Below are positions 2,400 through 42,198 of a stretch of 64,000 nt of DNA, piece after piece; positions within the stretch are counted from its first letter, which is position 1, and each line of letters opens with the position of its first letter. The notes under the pieces were generated by a model, which was not told where the DNA came from, did no database searches, and saw only the letters and a list, made by a program, of their open reading frames with translations. A program made the position numbers and the translations under genes. The stretch covers positions 8,370,001 to 8,434,000 of the forward strand of contig NZ_JAPEOZ010000001.1 of assembly GCF_026340655.1 (NCBI RefSeq), in the 5' to 3' direction. The stretch comes from Streptomyces sp. NBC_01275 (GTDB taxonomy: Bacteria; Actinomycetota; Actinomycetes; Streptomycetales; Streptomycetaceae).

Positions 2400-3180
2400 T
2401 CAGCTACCGGGGCAGCGCGTCCCCACCGTCGTCGCCGACGACGTGCACATCGTCTACCGCGTCAACGGCGCCAAGACCGGCAAGGGCAGCGCCACCGCCG
2501 CCCTCAGCCGCATCGTCAGGCGCGGCTCCGACGACTCGGCGCGGGGCGTGCGCAAGGTGCACGCGGTGCGCGGGGTCTCCTTCGTCGCCTACCGGGGCGA
2601 GGCCATCGGCCTGATCGGCTCCAACGGCTCCGGCAAGTCCACCCTGCTGCGGGCCATCGCCGGCCTGCTGCCCCCGGAGAGCGGCAAGGTCTACACCGAC
2701 GGCCAGCCCTCGCTGCTCGGCGTCAACGCGGCCCTGATGAACGACCTCACCGGCGAGCGCAACGTCATCCTCGGCGGACTCGCCATGGGCATGTCCCGCG
2801 AGCAGGTCAAGGAGCGCTACCAGGAGATCGTCGAGTTCTCCGGCATCAACGAGAAGGGCGACTTCATCACCCTGCCGATGCGCACCTACTCCTCCGGCAT
2901 GCAGGCCCGGCTGCGGTTCTCCATCGCCGCCGCCAAGGACCACGACGTCCTGATGATCGACGAGGCCCTGGCCACCGGCGACCGCAAGTTCCAGAAGCGC
3001 TCCGAGGAACGCATCCGGGAGTTGCGCAAGCAGGCCGGCACGGTGTTCCTGGTCAGCCACAGCAACAAGTCGATCCGCGACACCTGCGACCGGGTGCTCT
3101 GGCTGGAGCGCGGCGAACTCCGCCTGGACGGTCCGACCGACGAGGTCCTCAAGGAGTACGAGAAGTTCACGGGCAAGTAG
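2392..3180 (+). CDS. ABC transporter ATP-binding protein, TagH/Wzt-like
   Basis: 262 residues. Walker A is GSNGSGKST (76-84), the signature is YSSGM (166-170) and Walker B is VLMIDEAL (from 186); a switch histidine lies in LVSHSNKS. The divergent signature (YSSGM instead of LSGGQ) and the approximately 60-residue N-terminal extension containing a second strand before Walker A are typical of polysaccharide and teichoic-acid exporters. It would energise the permease encoded just upstream. The GTG start overlaps the permease gene by 8 bp. There is no C-terminal cargo-binding extension as in long Wzt proteins; the protein ends shortly after the DGPTDEVLKEYEKF helix. A strong hairpin follows the stop. 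Confidence 0.9.
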   Translation: MADQLPGQRVPTVVADDVHIVYRVNGAKTGKGSATAALSRIVRRGSDDSARGVRKVHAVRGVSFVAYRGEAIGLIGSNGSGKSTLLRAIAGLLPPESGKVYTDGQPSLLGVNAALMNDLTGERNVILGGLAMGMSREQVKERYQEIVEFSGINEKGDFITLPMRTYSSGMQARLRFSIAAAKDHDVLMIDEALATGDRKFQKRSEERIRELRKQAGTVFLVSHSNKSIRDTCDRVLWLERGELRLDGPTDEVLKEYEKFTGK

Positions 3181-3190
3181 TCCGACGGAC

Positions 3191-3226
3191 GCGGGGCCCC
3201 GCCGGAACTGACCGGCGGGGCCCCGC
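3191..3226 (+). terminator. Perfect 15-bp hairpin after the glycan exporter operon
   Basis: A perfect inverted repeat with 15-bp arms (GCGGGGCCCCGCCGG and its complement) and a 6-nt loop AACTGA starts 11 bp after the ATPase stop. There is no long T-run, as is usual for Streptomyces terminators. It separates the exporter genes from the hopanoid operon. Confidence 0.8.
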
Positions 3227-3267
3227 GTCTGCAAAGGAAACGCCAACTCAGGGCGCGTTCAGGAATC

Positions 3268-3297
3268 TTGACACCAATCGGTGTGTTGTTGTGATGT
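3268..3297 (+). promoter_or_regulatory. Candidate sigma-70 type promoter of the hopanoid operon
   Basis: TTGACA (3268-3273) is a perfect -35 hexamer, followed 18 bp later by TGATGT (3292-3297), a weak -10. The spacer begins with the inverted repeat ACACC-AATC-GGTGT (3271-3284), which could be an operator. It lies in the 297-bp gap between the exporter operon and the leader ORF. No other good hexamer pair was found there, but the -10 is poor and the start site may lie elsewhere. Confidence 0.35.
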
Positions 3298-3323
3298 GCA
3301 GGACACCCCCGCGAACCTCGCTG

Positions 3324-3335
3324 CGTTGTACAACG
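3324..3335. promoter_or_regulatory. 12-bp perfect palindrome upstream of hpnC (possible operator)
   Basis: CGTTGTACAACG is a perfect 12-bp palindrome in an AT-richer pocket of the intergenic region, about 27 bp downstream of the candidate -10. A few bases later a GTACGG partly repeats the core. It could be the site of a regulator acting on the hopanoid operon. No known binding consensus is claimed. Confidence 0.3.
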
Positions 3336-3477
3336 TAAGCTGTACGGGTCTCGAATCGCGTCAAGTGGGGCGATATTGCGCGACACCCATGGCCCGGGCC
3401 GCCGCGCGGGCGGCTGGGCGGCGTGTCCGAAATAGTGTGTCTTGGGTCAGCGGTGTAGAACGGGAGATGTGACGGCG

Positions 3478-3543
3478 ATGGCTACGGAAACTCCCCAGCT
3501 CAACGGAGCGTGTGCCGTCCCTGCCCAGGACTGTCGACGGTGA
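3478..3543 (+). CDS. 21-codon leader ORF coupled to hpnC
   Basis: ATG 3478 opens a 21-codon frame beginning MATETPQLNG and ending AQDCRR, whose TGA (3541-3543) overlaps the GTG start of hpnC at 3540 (GTGA). A purine-rich GGGAG lies at 3462-3466, about 11 nt upstream, a usable ribosome-binding site; hpnC itself has no convincing Shine-Dalgarno directly before its GTG. An in-frame GTG at 3469 would extend it by three codons. It may be a translational-coupling leader rather than a functional peptide. It contains two cysteines. I do not recognise the sequence. Confidence 0.4.
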   Translation: MATETPQLNGACAVPAQDCRR

Positions 3544-4442
3544 GCGCGCCGGCCGCGCCACGCACCGGCGACCCGGAGCGCGGCACCCTCGACAAGGCCG
3601 CCGACGAGAACTTCCCGGTGGCGCCGTTCTTCCTGCCCAAGGCCTGGCGCGACGACCTCATGGCGGTGTACGGATTCGCCCGCCTCGTCGACGACATCGG
3701 CGACGGCGACCTCGCCCCGGGCGGCGCCGACGCCCGTCTCCTCGGGGTGTCGGCCACCGACGCCGAGGACCGGCTGGTCCTGCTGGACGCCTTCGAGGCC
3801 GACCTGCGGCGGGTCTTCGACGGCGAGCCGCGCCACCCCCTGCTGCGCCGCCTGCGGCCCACGGTCCGCCGTCGCGCCCTCACCCCCGAGCCCTTCCTCG
3901 GCCTGATCGCCGCCAACCGCCAGGACCAGCTCGTCACCCGCTACGAGACCTACGACGATCTCCTCGCCTACTGCGAGCTGTCGGCCAACCCCGTCGGCCG
4001 GCTCGTCCTCGCCGTCACCGGCGCCTCGACCCCCGAGCGGATCCGCCGCTCCGACGCGATCTGCACCGCACTGCAGATCGTCGAACATCTGCAGGACGTG
4101 GCCGAGGACCTCGGCCGCGACCGCATCTACCTGCCGGCCGCGGACATGAAACGCTTCCACGTGCAGGAATCCGATCTCGCCGTGCCCAGCGCCGGCGCAT
4201 CGGTGCGCGCGCTGGTCGCATGCGAAGCGCAACGCGCCCGCGATCTGCTGAATGAAGGAGCCCCCCTGGTGGGTAGCGTCCACGGCAGGCTGAGGCTGCT
4301 GCTCGCAGGGTTCGTGGCGGGGGGAAGGGCGGCGATCCGTGCGATCGCCGCCGCCGAATACGACGTACTTCCCGGCCCGCCCAAGCCCGGCAAGCTCCTT
4401 TTGCTGCGCGAGGTGGGCGTGACCCTGCGAGGAGAGGGGTGA
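3540..4442 (+). CDS. hpnC: Hydroxysqualene synthase-type squalene/phytoene synthase HpnC
   Basis: 300 residues from GTG 3540. Trans-isoprenyl-diphosphate synthase fold with the two aspartate-rich motifs DDIGD (51-55) and DVAED (186-190), the latter followed by LGRDRIYLP as in squalene/phytoene synthases. In the bacterial HpnCDE route HpnD makes presqualene diphosphate from two farnesyl diphosphates, HpnC converts it to hydroxysqualene and HpnE reduces that to squalene. The two paralogues are told apart here by order (HpnC first) and by the N-terminal KAADENFPVAPFFLPKAWR pattern typical of HpnC. The chosen start overlaps the leader ORF stop; an in-frame GTG at 3510 would add ten residues. Its stop overlaps the hpnD start. 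Confidence 0.93.
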   Translation: MSAPAAPRTGDPERGTLDKAADENFPVAPFFLPKAWRDDLMAVYGFARLVDDIGDGDLAPGGADARLLGVSATDAEDRLVLLDAFEADLRRVFDGEPRHPLLRRLRPTVRRRALTPEPFLGLIAANRQDQLVTRYETYDDLLAYCELSANPVGRLVLAVTGASTPERIRRSDAICTALQIVEHLQDVAEDLGRDRIYLPAADMKRFHVQESDLAVPSAGASVRALVACEAQRARDLLNEGAPLVGSVHGRLRLLLAGFVAGGRAAIRAIAAAEYDVLPGPPKPGKLLLLREVGVTLRGEG

Positions 4443-5389
4443 TCCGGACCGTGGAGTCGTCACCGCACGTGTCCGCACCGGTACTCGCCGCCTACAGCTA
4501 CTGCGAGGCCGTCACCGGACAGCAGGCGCGCAACTTCGCGTACGGCATCCGGCTGTTGCCCGCGGCCAAGCGTCGCGCGATGTCGGCGCTGTACGCGTTC
4601 TCGCGCCGCGTCGACGACATCGGCGACGGCGAGCTGGACGTCGGCGTCAAGAGCGCCCGGCTCGAGGACACCCGGGCGCTGCTCGGCCGGGTCCGCGCGG
4701 GCGAGGTCGAGGAGGACGACACCGACCCCGTCGCGGTCGCCCTCGCACACACGGCCCGGGCCTTCCCGGTCCCGCTGGGCGGCCTGGACGAGCTGATCGA
4801 CGGCGTGCTCATGGACGTACGCGGCGAGACGTACGAGACCTGGGACGACCTGAAGACGTACTGCCGTTGTGTGGCGGGCGCCATCGGGCGGCTCTCGCTC
4901 GGCGTCTTCGGCACGGAACCGGGGGCGCGCGGGGCTGAGCGCGCGGCGGAGTACGCCGACACGCTCGGGCTCGCGCTCCAGCTCACGAACATCCTCCGGG
5001 ACGTCCGGGAGGACGCGGCGGGCGGCCGTACCTATCTGCCCGCCGACGACCTCGCCAAGTTCGGCTGCTCGGCCGGGTTCGACGGGCCGAAGCCGCCGGA
5101 GGGCTCCGACTTCGCGGGTCTCGTGCACTTCGAGGTGCGCCGGGCCCGCGCCCTGTTCGCCGAGGGCTACCGGCTGCTGCCCATGCTCGACCGGCGCAGC
5201 GGCGCCTGTGTCGCCGCCATGGCCGGCATCTACCGGCGCCTCCTCGACCGCATCGAGCGCGACCCCGAGGCCGTGCTGCGCGGCCGGGTCTCCCTGCCCG
5301 GACGGGAGAAGGCGTACGTCGCCGTGCGCGGACTGTCGGGCCTGGACGCCCGGCACGTGTCGCGGCAGACCGTCAGGAGGCACCCCTGA
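4439..5389 (+). CDS. hpnD: Presqualene diphosphate synthase HpnD
   Basis: 316 residues from GTG 4439, overlapping the hpnC stop. Residues 20-33 (SYCEAVTGQQARNF) match the substrate-entry region of HpnD and phytoene synthases. The aspartate-rich motifs are DDIGD (59-63) and DVRED (188-192, within NILRDVREDA), followed by GGRTYLPADDL. It is expected to condense two farnesyl diphosphates head to head to presqualene diphosphate at the cytoplasmic membrane. A nearby in-frame GTG at 4451 is an alternative start. Its stop overlaps the ATG of the next small ORF (TGATG), so translation can pass straight on. Confidence 0.93.
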   Translation: MIRTVESSPHVSAPVLAAYSYCEAVTGQQARNFAYGIRLLPAAKRRAMSALYAFSRRVDDIGDGELDVGVKSARLEDTRALLGRVRAGEVEEDDTDPVAVALAHTARAFPVPLGGLDELIDGVLMDVRGETYETWDDLKTYCRCVAGAIGRLSLGVFGTEPGARGAERAAEYADTLGLALQLTNILRDVREDAAGGRTYLPADDLAKFGCSAGFDGPKPPEGSDFAGLVHFEVRRARALFAEGYRLLPMLDRRSGACVAAMAGIYRRLLDRIERDPEAVLRGRVSLPGREKAYVAVRGLSGLDARHVSRQTVRRHP

Positions 5390-5541
5390 TGGACAGCGCG
5401 GGCGACAAACTGGACCAAGGTGATTCCACCGACGAAAAGCGGCACGCAACCCTCCGGTGCGGCGCGGCGTCCCTGACTGCGACGGCCCGCCGTGCAGAGT
5501 TCAAGCAGCACGGCGGGTACGCAGGGGAGGGTGCACGATGA
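5389..5541 (+). CDS. 50-residue small protein between hpnD and hpnE
   Basis: ATG 5389 shares bases with the hpnD stop (TGATG) and its TGA (5539-5541) overlaps the hpnE ATG (ATGA), so it fills the 148-bp gap exactly and is coupled at both ends. The product starts MDSAGDKLDQGD, has a conserved-looking core KRHATLRCGAASLTATARRA and ends GGYAGEGAR; it is basic in the middle with no membrane segment or signal. Codon third positions are G/C-rich after the first 20 codons. From memory it resembles a short Streptomyces family annotated as DUF6380 in hopanoid loci; I could not check this. Function is unknown; it could be a small partner of HpnD/HpnE or only a coupling device that carries the hpnE ribosome-binding site (GGGGAGGG). 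Confidence 0.6.
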   Translation: MDSAGDKLDQGDSTDEKRHATLRCGAASLTATARRAEFKQHGGYAGEGAR

Positions 5542-7046
5542 ACGACGAGCAGGCCGCGGACGCCTCACCGGCGGCCGGTCCTTCGGGGCGCACCGCCGTC
5601 GTCGTGGGCGGCGGGCTCGCCGGCATCACCGCCGCGCTCGCGCTCGCCGACGCGGGCGTGCGCGTGACGTTGCTCGAAGGCCGGCCCCGGCTCGGCGGCC
5701 TGGCCTTCTCCTTCCAGCGCGGCGAACTGACCGTCGACAACGGACAGCACGTGTATCTGCGCTGCTGCACCGCCTACCGGTGGTTCCTCGACCGCATCGA
5801 GGGCAGCGCGCTGGCGCCCTTGCAGGAACGTCTCGACGTGCCCGTCGTCGACGTCGCCAAGCCCGTGGGGCGACGGCTGGGCAGGCTGCGGCGCGACGCG
5901 CTGCCGGTCCCTCTCCACCTGGGGCGCAGCCTCGCCACGTACCCGCATCTCTCGCTCGCCGAACGCGCGCGCGTGGGACGGGCCGCGCTCGCGCTCAAGG
6001 GGCTCGACCTCGCCGATCCGGCCCTGGACGCGCAGGACTTCGGCAGCTGGCTGACCTCCCACGGGCAGTCGGCACGCGCCGTCGAGGCCCTCTGGGACCT
6101 GGTCGGCGTCGCCACCCTCAACGCGGTCGCGGGCGACTGCTCGCTGGCGCTCGCCGCGATGGTGTTCAAGACCGGTCTGCTCTCCGACCCCGGCGCGGCC
6201 GACATCGGCTGGGCGCACGTCCCGCTGGGCGAACTGCACGACCGGCTCGCCCGCAAGGCGCTCGACTCCGCCGGCGTGCGTACCGAGGTCCGTACACGCG
6301 TCACCTCCCTCTCCCTTGACGAAAACGGGACCTGGAGCGTTCAGGTTCCCGGCGAGACGCTGCGCGCGGACGCCGTCGTGCTCGCCGTACCGCAGCGCGA
6401 GACCCACGACCTGCTGCCCGACGGGGCGCTCGACGCGCCCGAGCGGCTGCTGCAGATCGGCACCGCGCCCATCCTCAACGTGCACGTCGTCTACGACCGC
6501 AAGGTCCTCGACGTGCCCTTCCTCGCGGCGCTCGGCTCGCCCGTGCAGTGGGTCTTCGACCGCACCGACGCCTCCGGGCTGAAGGACGGTCAGTACCTGG
6601 CGCTGTCGCAGTCGGCCGCGCAGGACGAGATCGACGCGCCCGTCGCCGCCCTGCGGGAGCGCTATCTGCCCGAGCTGGAGCGGCTGCTGCCGGGCACGCG
6701 CGGCGCCGAGGTGAGGGACTTCTTCGTCACCCGGGAGCGCACGGCGACGTTCGCCCCCGACCCCGGCGTCGACCGTCTGCGGCCCGGCGCCCGCACCCAA
6801 GCCCCCGGCCTGTACCTGGCCGGAGCGTGGACCGCCACAGGGTGGCCCGCGACCATGGAGAGTGCGGTCCGCAGCGGTGTGAGCGCGGCCGACGCCGCCC
6901 TCGGCGCCCTCGGCCGACCCCGACCCCACCGTCTCCTCGCGTCCTTCGAGGAGACGGCCTACTGCATCGTCCCGGGGGCCAACCCCCGGACCCCCGGCCG
7001 AACACCGGAGGGAACCGGCGTTTCACCGCGAGGTGAGATCCGGTGA
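5538..7046 (+). CDS. hpnE: Hydroxysqualene dehydroxylase HpnE (FAD amine-oxidase fold)
   Basis: 502 residues from ATG 5538, which follows a good ribosome-binding site (GGGGAGGG). An N-terminal dinucleotide-binding motif VVVGGGLAGITAAL (GGGLAG at 24-29) ends in the acidic LLEG (E47), then RLGG, the standard FAD start of phytoene-desaturase-like enzymes. Near the C-terminus GLYLAGAWTATGWPATMESA is the conserved FAD-ribityl segment. HpnE reduces hydroxysqualene to squalene, the last step before cyclisation. An upstream in-frame start at 5457 exists but would overlap the small ORF and lacks a ribosome-binding site. The stop overlaps an in-frame GTG (7043) of the next gene. Confidence 0.92.
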   Translation: MNDEQAADASPAAGPSGRTAVVVGGGLAGITAALALADAGVRVTLLEGRPRLGGLAFSFQRGELTVDNGQHVYLRCCTAYRWFLDRIEGSALAPLQERLDVPVVDVAKPVGRRLGRLRRDALPVPLHLGRSLATYPHLSLAERARVGRAALALKGLDLADPALDAQDFGSWLTSHGQSARAVEALWDLVGVATLNAVAGDCSLALAAMVFKTGLLSDPGAADIGWAHVPLGELHDRLARKALDSAGVRTEVRTRVTSLSLDENGTWSVQVPGETLRADAVVLAVPQRETHDLLPDGALDAPERLLQIGTAPILNVHVVYDRKVLDVPFLAALGSPVQWVFDRTDASGLKDGQYLALSQSAAQDEIDAPVAALRERYLPELERLLPGTRGAEVRDFFVTRERTATFAPDPGVDRLRPGARTQAPGLYLAGAWTATGWPATMESAVRSGVSAADAALGALGRPRPHRLLASFEETAYCIVPGANPRTPGRTPEGTGVSPRGEIR

Positions 7047-7111: not shown

Positions 7112-8185
7112 GTGCCCACTGTGCCCCCGGCCTCGTCGGCCGCTCGGAGGACCGCGGTGGACGTGACCGCGCTTCTGGAGCGCGGCCGCACCCTGGCCAC
7201 ACCGGTGCTGCGGGCGGCCGTGGACCGCCTGGCCCCGCCCATGGACACGGTCGCCGCGTACCACTTCGGCTGGATCGACGCCCAGGGCAACCCTACCGAC
7301 GGCGACGGGGGCAAGGCCGTACGCCCCGCCCTGGCGGTGCTCTCCGCCGAGGTCACCGGGGCCGCGCCGGAGACCGGCGTGCCCGGCGCGGTCGCCGTCG
7401 AGCTGGTCCACAACTTCTCGCTCCTGCACGACGACCTGATGGACGGCGACGAACAGCGCCGGCACCGCGACACCGTCTGGAAGGTGCACGGGCCCGCCCA
7501 GGCCATCCTGGTCGGCGACGCCCTGTTCGCCCTCGCCAACGAGATTCTCCTCGAACTCGGCACGGTCGAGGCAGGCCGCGCCACCCGCCGGCTGACCACC
7601 GCCAGCCGCGCCCTGATCGACGGCCAGGCCCAGGACATCTCCTACGAGCACCGCGACCGCGTCAGCGTCGAGGAGTGTCTGGAGATGGAGGGCAACAAGA
7701 CCGGCGCCCTGCTGGCCTGCGCCAGCTCCATCGGCGCCGTGCTCGGCGGCGCGGACGAGCGCACGGCCGACACCCTGGAGAAGTACGGCTACCACCTCGG
7801 CCTCGCCTTCCAGGCCGTCGACGACCTCCTCGGCATCTGGGGCGACCCCGTCTCCACCGGCAAGCAGACCTGGAGCGATCTGCGCCAGCGCAAGAAGTCC
7901 CTACCGGTCGTGGCCGCGCTCGCGGCCGGCGGCCCCGCCTCCGAGCGGCTCGGCGAGATCCTCGCCGCCGACGCCAAGAGCAGCGACTTCGCGACCTTCT
8001 CCGAGGAGGAGTTCGCGGCCCGCGCCGCCCTCATCGAGGAGGCGGGCGGCCGGGAGTGGACGGCCGAGGAGGCGCGCCGTCAGCACACCATCGCCATCGA
8101 GGCCCTGGACGCCGTCGACATGCCCGAGCAGGTGCGGGCCCGGTTCACGGCGCTCGCGGACTTCGTCGTCGTACGAAAGAGATGA
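7112..8185 (+). CDS. Polyprenyl (probably farnesyl) diphosphate synthase
   Basis: 357 residues. The first aspartate-rich motif is DDLMDGDEQRRHR (DDLMD at 107-111); the second is DDLLG (237-241) followed by IWGD, the variant common in actinobacterial short-chain synthases. It elongates DMAPP with IPP; in this operon it most likely supplies farnesyl diphosphate to HpnD, though chain length cannot be fixed by eye. GTG 7112 is chosen because AGAGGAGAA lies 6 nt upstream. An alternative GTG at 7043 overlaps the hpnE stop and would add 23 proline/threonine-rich residues; both could be used. Confidence 0.9.
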   Translation: MPTVPPASSAARRTAVDVTALLERGRTLATPVLRAAVDRLAPPMDTVAAYHFGWIDAQGNPTDGDGGKAVRPALAVLSAEVTGAAPETGVPGAVAVELVHNFSLLHDDLMDGDEQRRHRDTVWKVHGPAQAILVGDALFALANEILLELGTVEAGRATRRLTTASRALIDGQAQDISYEHRDRVSVEECLEMEGNKTGALLACASSIGAVLGGADERTADTLEKYGYHLGLAFQAVDDLLGIWGDPVSTGKQTWSDLRQRKKSLPVVAALAAGGPASERLGEILAADAKSSDFATFSEEEFAARAALIEEAGGREWTAEEARRQHTIAIEALDAVDMPEQVRARFTALADFVVVRKR

Positions 8186-8218
8186 TCACTATCGGTCGAA
8201 TAGTCCTCGCGTAGTCGC

Positions 8219-8253
8219 CGGCCGGTGCAGCGAGGCGAGAGGCGCACCGGCCG
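8219..8253 (+). other. Intra-operon hairpin between prenyl synthase and shc
   Basis: A perfect 10-bp inverted repeat, CGGCCGGTGC (8219-8228) and its complement (8244-8253), with a 15-nt loop lies in the 121-bp gap, the longest non-coding gap inside the hopanoid operon. No T-run follows. It may be an attenuator, a processing site or a stabiliser that sets the relative level of cyclase mRNA. Confidence 0.45.
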
Positions 8254-8306
8254 ACGGCGGACCCACAGCAGACGCAACGACATGCACACTGCACGAAGGG
8301 GAAGCC

Positions 8307-10337
8307 ATGACAGCGACGACCGACGGAAGCACCGGGGCTCTGCCGCCCCGCGCTGCCGCGGCCAGCGAAACCGACATCACCATCCCCGTGGCGGCCGGGG
8401 TACAAGAAGCCGCCGTACGCGCGGTGCAACGCGCCACCGACCTCCTGCTCGCCCAGCAGGACGCCGAGGGCTGGTGGAAGGGCGACCTCGAGACCAACGT
8501 CACGATGGACGCCGAGGATCTGCTGCTCCGTCAGTTCCTGGGCATCCGCGACGAACCGACGACCCACGCCTCCGCCCTCTTCATCCGCGGCGAACAGCGC
8601 GACGACGGCACCTGGGCGACCTTCTACGGCGGCCCGTCCGACCTCTCCGCGACGATCGAGGCGTACGTCGCCCTGCGGCTGGCCGGCGATGCTCCCGAGG
8701 CGCCCCACATGGCGAGGGCCTCCGCCTGGGTCCGCGACCAGGGAGGCATCGCCGCCGCCCGGGTCTTCACCCGGATCTGGCTGGCCCTGTTCGGCTGGTG
8801 GAGGTGGGAGGACCTGCCCGAACTCCCGCCGGAACTCTTGTACTTCCCTAAATGGTTTCCGCTGAGCATCTACAACTTCGGCTGCTGGGCCCGGCAGACG
8901 ATCGTGCCCCTCACCGTCGTGTCGGCGAAGCGTCCGGTGCGTCCGGCGCCGTTCCCGCTCGACGAGCTGCACACCGACCCGGCCCGGCCCAACCCCGGCA
9001 AGCCCCTTGCGCCGGTCGCCAGTTGGGACGGACTCTTCCAGCGGCTCGACAAGGTCGTGCGCGGCTACCGCTCGGTCGCGGTGCGCAGGCTGCGCAAGGC
9101 GGCCCTGAACTCCGCCGCCCTCTGGATCATCCAACGCCAGGAGAACGACGGCTGCTGGGGAGGCATCCAGCCCCCGGCCGTGTACTCGGTCATCGCCCTG
9201 CACCTGCTCGGCTACGACCTCGAACACCCCGTGATGCGCGCGGGTCTTGAGTCGCTGGATCGTTACGCCGTGTGGCGCGAGGACGGGGCCCGGATGATCG
9301 AGGCCTGTCAGTCGCCGGTGTGGGACACCTGCCTGGCGACCATCGCGCTCGCCGACGCGGGGCTGCCCGCCGATCACCCCCAACTGGTCAAGGCCGCCGA
9401 CTGGATGCTCGGCGAACAGATCGTGCGCCCCGGCGACTGGTCGGTGCGCAGGCCCCAACTCCCGCCCGGGGGCTGGGCGTTCGAATTCCACAACGACAAC
9501 TACCCGGACATCGACGACACCGCCGAGGTCGTCCTGGCGCTGCGCCGGGTCGCCCACCACGACCCGGAGCGGCTCGAGAGGGCCGTCGCGCGGGGCGTGC
9601 GCTGGAACCTCGGGATGCAGTCGCGCAACGGGGGCTGGGGGGCGTTCGACGTCGACAACACCAGCCGGTTCCCCAACCGGATGCCGTTCTGCGACTTCGG
9701 CGAGGTGATCGACCCGCCGTCCGCGGACGTCACCGCGCACGTGGTCGAGATGCTCGCCGTGGAGGGACTCTCCCACGACCCGCGCACCCGGCGCGGCATC
9801 GAGTGGCTGCTGGCCGAACAGGAGTTGGAGGGCTCGTGGTTCGGACGGTGGGGCGTCAACTACGTCTACGGCACCGGCTCGGTGGTCCCCGCGCTCGCCG
9901 CGGCGGGTCTGCCCGCCCAGCACCCCGCGATCCGACGGGCGGTCGCCTGGCTGGAGCGCGTGCAGAACGACGACGGCGGCTGGGGCGAGGACCTGCGCTC
10001 CTACGAGGACGCGGCCCGCTGGAGCGGCCGGGGCGCCTCGACGGCCTCGCAGACCGCGTGGGCGCTGATGGCGTTGCTGGCCGCGGGGGAGAAGGACTCC
10101 AAGGCCGTCGAGCGGGGGGTCGCGTGGCTGGCCGCGACCCAGCGGGAGGACGGCTCCTGGGACGAGCCCCACTTCACCGGCACCGGCTTCCCGTGGGACT
10201 TCTCGATCAACTACCACCTCTACCGGCAGGTCTTCCCGCTGACGGCCCTCGGCCGGTACGTCCACGGGGAGCCGTTCAGCAAGAAGTCCCCGACGGCTTC
10301 CGGCGCGGTGGCGTCCGCAGAGGTCAAGGGGGGCTGA
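8307..10337 (+). CDS. shc: Squalene-hopene cyclase
   Basis: 676 residues, normal for the family. The protonating motif DXDD is present as DIDDTAE (D401-I-D-D404). Several QW repeats are visible: QQDAEGWWKG, QENDGCWGG, QSRNGGWGAF, QNDDGGWGED and QREDGSWDE. The enzyme is a monotopic membrane protein that cyclises squalene to hopene and hopanol. ATG 8307 follows GAAGGGGAAG, a good ribosome-binding site. The stop overlaps the hpnG start (TGATG). It follows the squalene-forming genes and precedes the side-chain genes, the usual Streptomyces order. Confidence 0.97.
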   Translation: MTATTDGSTGALPPRAAAASETDITIPVAAGVQEAAVRAVQRATDLLLAQQDAEGWWKGDLETNVTMDAEDLLLRQFLGIRDEPTTHASALFIRGEQRDDGTWATFYGGPSDLSATIEAYVALRLAGDAPEAPHMARASAWVRDQGGIAAARVFTRIWLALFGWWRWEDLPELPPELLYFPKWFPLSIYNFGCWARQTIVPLTVVSAKRPVRPAPFPLDELHTDPARPNPGKPLAPVASWDGLFQRLDKVVRGYRSVAVRRLRKAALNSAALWIIQRQENDGCWGGIQPPAVYSVIALHLLGYDLEHPVMRAGLESLDRYAVWREDGARMIEACQSPVWDTCLATIALADAGLPADHPQLVKAADWMLGEQIVRPGDWSVRRPQLPPGGWAFEFHNDNYPDIDDTAEVVLALRRVAHHDPERLERAVARGVRWNLGMQSRNGGWGAFDVDNTSRFPNRMPFCDFGEVIDPPSADVTAHVVEMLAVEGLSHDPRTRRGIEWLLAEQELEGSWFGRWGVNYVYGTGSVVPALAAAGLPAQHPAIRRAVAWLERVQNDDGGWGEDLRSYEDAARWSGRGASTASQTAWALMALLAAGEKDSKAVERGVAWLAATQREDGSWDEPHFTGTGFPWDFSINYHLYRQVFPLTALGRYVHGEPFSKKSPTASGAVASAEVKGG

Positions 10338-20701: not shown

Positions 20702-20768
20702 TTAACAGAGGGTGACTGGGAATTCCCACAGGGGATCAAGAGGAACGTTCGCGCAGGGCAACCGCTGC

Positions 20769-20798
20769 TTGTCCCTGTGCGTCTTGGTCCCTTACGTT
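20769..20798 (+). promoter_or_regulatory. Candidate promoter for the riboswitch-controlled peptidase
   Basis: TTGTCC (20769-20774), 18-bp spacer, TACGTT (20793-20798). A start around 20805 would begin the transcript just before the riboswitch. Hexamers are plausible, not perfect. Confidence 0.4.
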
Positions 20799-20816: not shown

Positions 20817-20990
20817 ACGCCCAATCCTGCCGCCGCCCGGATCCCGCACTCACTCACCCGTACCAGGCAGGAGCGGGGGACCCACAGGTAGAACCGCCTG
20901 TTCCGGTCTCCGGAACGGCTAGGGGTAAAGCCGCGCCTCGGTGCGGCCGGGCATCTCCAGCCCGCACCCGACAGCTCACCTCGCAGGCGC
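20817..20990 (+). promoter_or_regulatory. ydaO-type cyclic-di-AMP riboswitch
   Basis: The leader contains the hallmark blocks of the actinobacterial ydaO element in order: a hairpin TCCTGCC (20825-20831) with GGCAGGA (20866-20872), GAGCGGGGGACCCACA, GGCTAGGGGTAAAGCC, and the very conserved 3' block CCCGACAGCTCACCTCGCAG (ending near 20985), then GGCG (20986-20989) able to pair with the 5' CGCC. This class binds c-di-AMP and in Streptomyces precedes genes for cell-wall hydrolases. It ends 16 bp before the ATG, overlapping the ribosome-binding site region (GGAGAGG). Boundaries are approximate. Confidence 0.85.
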
Positions 20991-21006
20991 CGGAGAGGAT
21001 TTCGTC

Positions 21007-22020
21007 ATGCCCGCGAAGGGTAAGCACCGCCGCCCGAAGACCCAGCGCTTCACCCGCTCCATAGCCGTCGCCGGAACCGGCGGCGCGGCTCTCGCTCTTC
21101 CGCTCATGGGAGCCGCCGGCGCCCACGCGGCGCCCTCTCAGTCCGTCGCCCAGTCGGCTTCCGCGTCGGCTTCCCAGGCGATTTCGCAGACGGTCTCGGA
21201 AAAGGCCGCGCAGTCCGTTCAGTCGGCGCGCCAGACGGCCGCCGAGACGAAGACCGCCGCCACGAGCACGAAGTCCTACACCGTGCGGTCCGGCGACTAT
21301 CTCTCGAAGATCGCGGACGAGCAGGACGTCAGCGGCGGCTGGCAGAAGCTGTACCAGGACAACCGCGCGGCCGTCGGCGACAACCCGTCGTTGATCCACC
21401 CCGGCCTCAAGCTGTCGATCGGCGGGAAGGCCGCGGCCGGCGCCAAGTCGTCGCCCGGTATATCCGGTTCGTCCGCCAAGTCGTCGACGTCCACGTCCTC
21501 CGGCTCCAAGGCGTCCTCGTCGTCTTCGTCGTCGGACTCTTCGTCCTCTTCGTCTTCTTCGTCCTCGTCGAAGGCGACCACCGAGGCCGCCGCGAGCACG
21601 AGCACCTCCAGCGGTTACACCCTCCCCGTGGCGGGCGCCACCATCGGCACCGCCTACCACACGGCCGGCAGCATGTGGTCCAGCGGCTACCACACCGGCG
21701 TCGACTTCGTCGTCCCGACCGGTACGTCCCTCAAGGCCGTCGCCGCGGGCACGGTCGTCTCCGCCGGCTGGGGCGGCGCGTACGGCAACCAGGTCGTCAT
21801 CAAGCTCGGCGACGGCTACTACGCCCAGTACGCCCATCTCTCGCAGCTCTCCGTCTCGGCCGGGCAGACCGTGACCGAGGGGCAGCAGATCGGTCTCTCC
21901 GGCGCGACCGGCAACGTGACCGGACCGCACCTCCACTTCGAGATCCGCACCACGCCGGACTACGGCTCGGACGTCGACCCGGTCGCCTACCTCCGCTCGC
22001 ACGGCGTCAGCGTCGGCTGA
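21007..22020 (+). CDS. Secreted LysM and M23-peptidase cell-wall hydrolase
   Basis: 337 residues from ATG 21007 (GGAGAGG upstream). Basic N-terminus, hydrophobic core and AHAAPS give a signal peptide cleaved near residue 41. LysM domain 91-138 (begins YTVRSGDYLSKIA), then a serine-rich linker (about 150-203, including an almost pure Ser stretch 168-188), then an M23 metallopeptidase domain: zinc ligands H229 and D233 in HTGVDF and H310 in the HLH of GPHLHFEIR. It would bind and cut peptidoglycan outside the cell, for example during growth or spore germination. Expression is probably set by the c-di-AMP riboswitch directly upstream, and a strong terminator follows, so it is monocistronic. Confidence 0.93.
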   Translation: MPAKGKHRRPKTQRFTRSIAVAGTGGAALALPLMGAAGAHAAPSQSVAQSASASASQAISQTVSEKAAQSVQSARQTAAETKTAATSTKSYTVRSGDYLSKIADEQDVSGGWQKLYQDNRAAVGDNPSLIHPGLKLSIGGKAAAGAKSSPGISGSSAKSSTSTSSGSKASSSSSSSDSSSSSSSSSSSKATTEAAASTSTSSGYTLPVAGATIGTAYHTAGSMWSSGYHTGVDFVVPTGTSLKAVAAGTVVSAGWGGAYGNQVVIKLGDGYYAQYAHLSQLSVSAGQTVTEGQQIGLSGATGNVTGPHLHFEIRTTPDYGSDVDPVAYLRSHGVSVG

Positions 22021-41295: not shown

Positions 41296-42198
41296 ATGAT
41301 CGAAGCGCGGCGGCTCCACATCCTCCGTGCGGTGGCCGACCATCGCACGGTGACGGCGGCTGCCGCCGCGCTGTACCTCACCCCGTCCGCCGTCTCCCAG
41401 CAGCTCGCCGCCCTGGAGCAGGAGACGGGCCACCGGCTGGTCGAGCGCAGCGCCAAGGGCGTACGACTGACCCCGGCCGGCGAGATCCTGCTCAGCCACA
41501 CCCACGTGGTCCTGGCCCAGCTGGAGCGGGCCGAGGCGGAACTCGCCGCGTACAGTTCGGGCGCGGCCGGCACGGTCACCGTCGCCGCCTTCGCGACCGG
41601 CATCGCGCAGGTCGTGGCGCCGGCCCTGGCCCGCCTCGCCCTGCTGGCGCCCGGAATCCGCATCCGCGTCCAGGACGCCGAGGGCGACGCCAGCCTGCCG
41701 ATGGTGCTGGACCGGCAGGTGGACGTCGCGGTCGCCGTCGAGTACCGAGGGGCCCCGGCCGCCGACGACCCTCGACTCACCCATGTCCCGCTCTACGCCG
41801 AGCCCTTCGACGCGGTCGTCCCGGTGACCCACCGGCTGGCCGGCGCCGACGAGGTCCCCCTCGCGGAGCTGGCCAAGGACCCGTGGATCGGCCCCTACCC
41901 CGGCAACCCCTGCCACGAAGTGGTCGTCCTGGCCTGCGAGAACGCCGGATTCCAGCCCCGCCTCGAGCACTCCTCCGACGACTTCCGCGCGGTCGTGGCC
42001 CTCGCGTCGGCCGACGCGGGCGTCGCCCTCGTTCCGCGCTCGGCGCTGCGCGGCATGGACCTGACGGGCGTGGTGGTCCGGCCCGTCGACGGGGTGGCGC
42101 CGACCCGCCGGGTCTTCGCGGCCGTACGACGGGGCGCGGAGGGGCACCCGCTGATCCGTCCGGTGCTGGACGCGCTCGGCGAGGCGGCCCGGACGTAA
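41296..42198 (+). CDS. LysR-family regulator next to tdh-kbl
   Basis: 300 residues. Winged helix MIEARRLHILRAVADHRTVT, AAAAALYLTPSAVSQQLAAL, EQETGHRLVERS. The effector domain starts TVTVAAFATGIAQVVAPALA. Located 110 bp after kbl on the same strand; a CGATAAT box lies just before the start. It may control threonine catabolism or the unknown genes beyond; nothing in the sequence decides this. Confidence 0.88.
   Translation: MIEARRLHILRAVADHRTVTAAAAALYLTPSAVSQQLAALEQETGHRLVERSAKGVRLTPAGEILLSHTHVVLAQLERAEAELAAYSSGAAGTVTVAAFATGIAQVVAPALARLALLAPGIRIRVQDAEGDASLPMVLDRQVDVAVAVEYRGAPAADDPRLTHVPLYAEPFDAVVPVTHRLAGADEVPLAELAKDPWIGPYPGNPCHEVVVLACENAGFQPRLEHSSDDFRAVVALASADAGVALVPRSALRGMDLTGVVVRPVDGVAPTRRVFAAVRRGAEGHPLIRPVLDALGEAART

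Follow-up and report, generated by a model that had tools for sequence, protein, structure and literature searches.

An internal sigma-E-class promoter predicted within a doubly coupled reading frame between hpnD and hpnE of Streptomyces

In Streptomyces sp. NBC_01275, the squalene genes hpnD (4439..5389, plus strand) and hpnE (5538..7046, plus strand) are separated by a gap of 148 nt that is wholly occupied by another open reading frame. Positions are those of the window, the whole stretch of 64,000 nucleotides that was analyzed. What keeps this frame in place is the question that the locus raises; a preliminary description took it for a hidden small protein with a part in hopanoid synthesis. 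HpnD and HpnE were identified by profile search (NCBIfam TIGR03465 and TIGR03467, both above cut-off). The genes hpnC and shc and the one for polyprenyl synthase carry names presumed from their position.

A reading frame coupled at both ends

The TGA that ends hpnD (5387-5389) shares a base with the ATG (5389-5391) of a 50-codon frame, giving a TGATG overlap; this frame is here called the bridge ORF (5389..5541, plus strand). It terminates at TGA 5539-5541, which overlaps the hpnE ATG at 5538-5540 (ATGA), and its last codons contain the ribosome-binding site of hpnE, AGGGGAGGG (5523-5531, plus strand), as the preliminary description had said. Overlapping stop and start codons of the forms ATGA and TGATG are a known form of translational coupling, and both ends of the bridge ORF use them. 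In the window, the outer neighbors of the pair are overlapped as well, by hpnD on the upstream side and by hpnE on the downstream side. At the junction before shc (8182-8307), an overlapping 10-codon frame (ATG 8182) stops short of shc, leaving no bridge. A study of a mid-operon element in S. griseus concerns the hopD/hopE junction and not hpnD-hpnE; the window has no bridge at that junction.

The junction was followed through a close set: 462 confirmed relatives were ranked by HpnD, and the top 80 were joined to the window. Because only the best 80 were taken, these loci lean to near kin. One of the 81 junctions (L046) was left out, its contig ending before hpnE, so that 80 could be scored. 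Every one has a start codon that shares bases with the hpnD stop (74 TGATG, 5 GTGA, 1 ATGA), and at the other end a 4-nt overlap joins the bridge ORF stop to an hpnE start. There are 24 gap lengths between 118 and 541 nt, each of them 1 mod 3. Since each additional length requires at least one insertion or deletion, the bridge frame has survived at least 23 of them. Two control places vary freely: the residues modulo three are 17/19/28 for the junction before the squalene-hopene cyclase gene (64 close loci) and 26/17/3 for a marker upstream of hpnC (46 loci). In six junctions with long gaps (L011, L013, L019, L022, L024 and L050) the sequence after a conserved block is different and still in frame, and in a more distant set a frame ending 4 nt into hpnE is found in 19 of 29 further junctions. 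All 80 close junctions thus show what is expected of a relay ORF, with stop/start overlaps at both ends and a frame kept through insertions and deletions, and the preliminary view that the double coupling exceeds chance is borne out.

Openness of the frame is a separate matter. When hpnE starts were initially assigned, 78/80 gaps had the bridge frame open, and correction of mis-assigned starts in the two remaining loci (L055 and L066) brings this to 80/80; the other forward frames are open in 4/80 and 36/80. Two reverse frames over the gap are open in 69/80 and 65/80, so in GC-rich DNA of this kind openness alone is weak evidence. It is the single residue class of the 24 lengths, set beside controls that are free to vary, that marks the frame as selected, and such selection is hard to explain unless the frame is translated.

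The bridge ORF matches Pfam family PF19907 (DUF6380) at 72 bits, where the cut-off is 27 (E=3.7e-20), confirming the family that the preliminary description had suggested. Among 10 listed matches of the DUF6380 profile in the whole genome of the same strain, one exceeds the cut-off. A search of 5.8 billion proteins gave 57 candidates, in all of which DUF6380 was present (57/57), the named ones being from Streptomyces; the name DUF6380 was not found in the paper texts searched. The bridge ORF is thus a real reading frame, and correctly named.

Rates of change at codon positions 1/2/3, taken from 490 close pairs, are.03/.01/.22 in hpnD, with.27 at its four-fold sites. The corresponding rates in the bridge ORF are.34/.43/.45 before the conserved block (compared without gaps up to the -35 element described below, so that insertions and deletions may inflate them),.26/.24/.23 after it, and.25/.36/.40 in the C-terminal stretch. 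An hpnE row was excluded from this comparison, having been compared without gaps. Third-position GC in the three bridge stretches is.70,.73 and.79, against.94 in hpnD. Outside the conserved block, then, each of the three codon positions of the bridge ORF changes at about the four-fold rate or above it; position 1 is slower than position 3 in two of the three stretches, which leaves room for a weak amino-acid constraint. DUF6380 does not behave as a protein family maintained by amino-acid selection: its core is conserved as DNA. Ten distant bridge peptides were compared with Pfam: for nine of them nothing matched at E<=1, and one had a weak DUF6380 match, below cut-off, over the conserved block. 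AlphaFold, run on the 57-row DUF6380 alignment, returned a pLDDT of 59 and a pTM of 0.14, and DSSP found no elements in the model. Two expectations of the preliminary description part ways here, since the gap, whose lengths vary, never leaves the frame, in keeping with its reading, and the peptide is not conserved outside the block, against it. Alignment of the gap across relatives divides likewise: third positions are conserved in the core, and elsewhere they change near or above the neutral rate.

A conserved element with the form of an ECF promoter

Two short blocks within the bridge ORF are nearly fixed at all three codon positions, rare codons included. The predicted -35 element, GCAACC (5446..5451, plus strand), has columns identical in 78 to 80 of the 80 close loci, and is the same as in the hrdD sigma-E promoter. 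The predicted -10 element, CGTCCC, with a conserved extension TGAC (5468..5477, plus strand), has columns identical in 76 to 80. Between them lies a spacer of 16 nt (5452..5467, plus strand) that is fixed in length and variable in its middle, positions 12-20 differing at.49/.28/.40. The pattern GCAACC, 15 nt, GCGTC, 1 nt, CTGA occurs in 80/80 gaps (74 exactly, 6 with three changes or fewer), and although spacings of 14-19 were permitted in the search, a single spacing was found throughout. A GCA codon keeps its third base A in 79/80 loci, GCA making up 3.4% of Ala codons in hpnD/hpnE, and an ACT codon keeps its T in 67/80, ACT making up 1.0% of Thr codons there. From the distance to the -10 element, a short hpnE transcript would be expected to start at 5479..5482 (plus strand). 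The basic core of the peptide (KRHATLRCGAASLT), which the preliminary description read as a mark of a functional protein, coincides with this predicted ECF-type promoter. In one close locus (L016) the promoter segment is duplicated.

Table 1 of the published S. coelicolor sigma-E regulon gives 91 predicted promoters (PMC6767563), 72 of which have the same spacing as the hpnE element. The hrdD promoter in that table is GGCAACCCTCAGGCGGTACGGGC-CGTCTT, and those of hrdD, sco2807 and pkaA share with the hpnE element the form GCAACC-N16-CGTC (PMC6767563). AAC at -35 and TC at -10, at the listed spacing, are all present in the hpnE element. What sets it apart from the listed promoters is its place, in a coupled ORF of an operon, and a -10 that reads CGTCCC where the commoner sigma-E form is CGTCT. 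In a scoring matrix built from the 91 promoters, the element earns 13.5, against a list median of 13.8 that is self-scored, and ranks sixth on both strands of the 64 kb. Of 121 family genomes, 17 contain the element with its extension, in 16 cases at the hpnD-hpnE junction and in one inside an unrelated ORF. The short pattern is in modest excess in the genome of the same strain, with 67 occurrences against 43 for a reversed control. Assignment to the sigma-E class of promoters is made with more confidence than any assignment to sigma-E itself.

Rfam gave four chance-level matches, far under gathering scores; a leader RNA hairpin after the -10 was considered and dropped when RNAalifold, applied to 62 loci, predicted none; and a scan of 3000-5700 for sigma-70 sites found none.

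The top sigma-E-like site of the window is at 20757-20785, 184 nt before an ORF at 20941-22020. The site resembles the promoter listed for sco6773 (PMC6767563), and the ORF appears by eye to encode a LysM peptidase, as does sco6773. Having been found unsought, this site serves as a positive control for the matrix. The third-best site, at 41902-41930, scores 16.3. A sigma-E-like site before hpnC (3203, score 14.5) was rejected as a promoter, as it falls in the hairpin of what looks by eye like a terminator and its spacing is 16 in some loci and 17 in others. That hairpin (3195-3231) is GC-rich and perfect-looking, stands between an upstream ABC transporter gene and hpnC, and recurs in most scanned relatives with a variable loop; a terminator scan did not list it.

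A proposed promoter and relay in one segment

A wider sample of 45 junctions, including the window (L141) and two from genomes picked for another reason (L179 and L180), was scored for both features. Left out were a chance match inside an unrelated ORF (L143), a locus in a genome without an operon hpnE (L176, G116), and two loci from the same genomes as others (L159 and L160, duplicating L130 and L131). A frame counted as a bridge if its start lay at most 4 nt ahead of the end of the hpnD stop or at most 8 nt beyond it, and a site was defined by a matrix score of 9 or more; L175 was scored as a direct overlap. All 31 junctions with a site have a bridge (31/31). The 14 without one comprise 5 bridges, 7 direct overlaps of hpnD and hpnE, and 2 with neither. 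The association has a Fisher p of 2e-6 over the 45 junctions, uncorrected for kinship, and no good site without a bridge occurs in the sample. The five bridges that lack a good site, one of them only 9 codons long (L171), show that a bridge does not strictly require the promoter. In L150 (G092) the -35 and -10 are separated by an inserted sequence of about 200 nt, whose ends look inverted by eye, and the bridge frame, now of 97 codons, is open and still coupled; a bridge can therefore outlive its promoter. hpnD and hpnE directly overlap in several relatives, and we infer an order in which direct overlap came first, the promoter segment then arrived, and selection has since kept that segment translatable.

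We consider it likely that the gap holds an internal sigma-E-class promoter for hpnE and the genes downstream, set inside a translated relay from hpnD to hpnE. The embedded promoter (-35 GCAACC, 16-nt spacer, -10 CGTC) would let hpnE and the genes behind it be transcribed separately. The short transcript would begin near 5480 and use hpnE's own ribosome-binding site, the bridge ORF having no start on it. On the long transcript, ribosomes finishing hpnD would restart at the overlapping ATG, traverse the promoter segment, and restart at hpnE. Untranslated RNA is open to polarity, and ribosomes can reinitiate at overlapping stop and start codons; the bridge would thus keep the promoter from breaking hpnD-hpnE coupling or exposing untranslated RNA to polarity. 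Unlike ordinary coupling, this arrangement would superimpose on a promoter a relay whose peptide sequence is hardly fixed. The DUF6380 family is this same ORF, described as a protein of unknown function. Its signature is best explained as mostly the promoter read in frame, with the peptide a by-product.

Other accounts were weighed against the same data. A functional DUF6380 protein in squalene or hopanoid synthesis, for example one tethering HpnD and HpnE through key residues in the core, has on its side recognition by Pfam, presence in all 57 candidates, a selected frame and coupling that predict translation, and position-1 rates slightly below those of position 3 in two stretches (.34 v.45;.25 v.40). 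We judge it quite unlikely, for conservation of the core extends to third positions and rare codons, positions 1 and 2 elsewhere show rates of.24-.43 where hpnD has.03 and.01, nine of ten distant peptides match no Pfam family at E<=1 with the tenth matching DUF6380 weakly over the core, and no confident fold was predicted. The rest of the ORF is without clear amino-acid constraint, and distant relatives retain the frame with other sequence in it. The functional small protein of the preliminary description, and with it a protein role in hopanoid synthesis, is not supported by the sequences.

The ORF might instead be a coupling relay only, with the block serving as some other DNA or RNA signal, such as an operator or an RNA element. 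Selection on the frame is independent of any promoter, five bridges lack a good site, and hpnE is missing from the published sigma-E list (PMC6767563); two blocks at a fixed 16-nt spacing around a variable spacer, the close match to listed sigma-E promoters, and the lack of both an Rfam match near gathering score and a consensus RNA fold after the -10 make this reading unlikely. Least probable by far is an untranslated frame left open by chance over a promoter. Stops are rare in GC-rich DNA, where one other forward frame is open in 36/80 gaps and two reverse frames in 69/80 and 65/80, but chance would hardly account for 24 lengths in one residue class, both overlaps in every close junction, and two control places that vary freely. 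It is at odds with the frame test unless local insertions and deletions are biased to multiples of three.

Sigma factor, antisense candidate and wider meaning

The user of the predicted promoter may be another ECF factor rather than sigma-E. The gene corresponding to hpnE (SCO6762) is absent from the published sigma-E list (PMC6767563). Two genomes that contain two exact S. coelicolor promoter sequences (29-30 nt) have both element and bridge; these probably belong to the S. coelicolor group, so absence of the element is probably not the reason that hpnE is unlisted. The list's authors argue that additional ECF factors recognize many sigma-E-type promoters (PMC6767563). BldN was considered as a candidate by a crude scan for AAC-N16-19-CGT[TC] upstream of 11 chaplin hits. 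It matched at three loci, of which two are adjacent hits that share an AAC...CGTT site and the third has AAC...CGTC. Array data from the second mycelium of S. coelicolor give log2 values of 0.9-1.1 for hpnE and the next gene against 0.4-0.5 for hpnD, and some later cluster genes do not rise at later times (PMC3610822). The greater rise of hpnE lends weak support to an internal promoter.

Synonymous constraint within hpnE peaks at 6279-6362, with a second, lower place at 6846-6887; GTT, 5.2% of Val codons in hpnE, is present in 67/80 and 55/80 loci at two places. The second-best sigma-E-like site of the window, GGGAACC-N16-CGTTTT (6322..6350, minus strand), falls within the higher peak and is a candidate antisense promoter inside hpnE, and GGGAACN-N16-CGTT is kept there in 61/80 loci. 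A cis-antisense RNA opposite hopC (SCO6762), the same gene as hpnE, has been reported in S. coelicolor and S. avermitilis (PMC3765725; sRNA209 in PMC4895711). The published passages concerned give no promoter, whereas a conserved candidate is present here at 6350-6322 on the minus strand. From its position and conservation, this site may be the promoter of the reported RNA, and if real it would be part of the regulation of the hpnD-hpnE junction.

The junction may also illustrate a general route for placing a promoter in a tightly coupled operon, in which the segment is kept readable in one frame, whatever the peptide; we offer this tentatively, at somewhat less than even confidence. If it is true, some domains of unknown function built from tiny intercistronic ORFs would be translated promoters. 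Conserved, coupled small ORFs in GC-rich genomes call for a codon-level test before they are labeled as proteins. For one Pfam family of unknown function the present reading gives a concrete, testable account, the signature being the promoter and the frame a bridge for ribosomes. It would also give the ECF cell-envelope network a defined point of contact with hopanoid synthesis in Streptomyces, a link of which we found no statement in the open-licence PMC papers searched. If the general route is real, the bridge, together with the antisense promoter that faces it from within hpnE, would make up a switch, tuned by stress or development, between squalene supply and hopanoid output.
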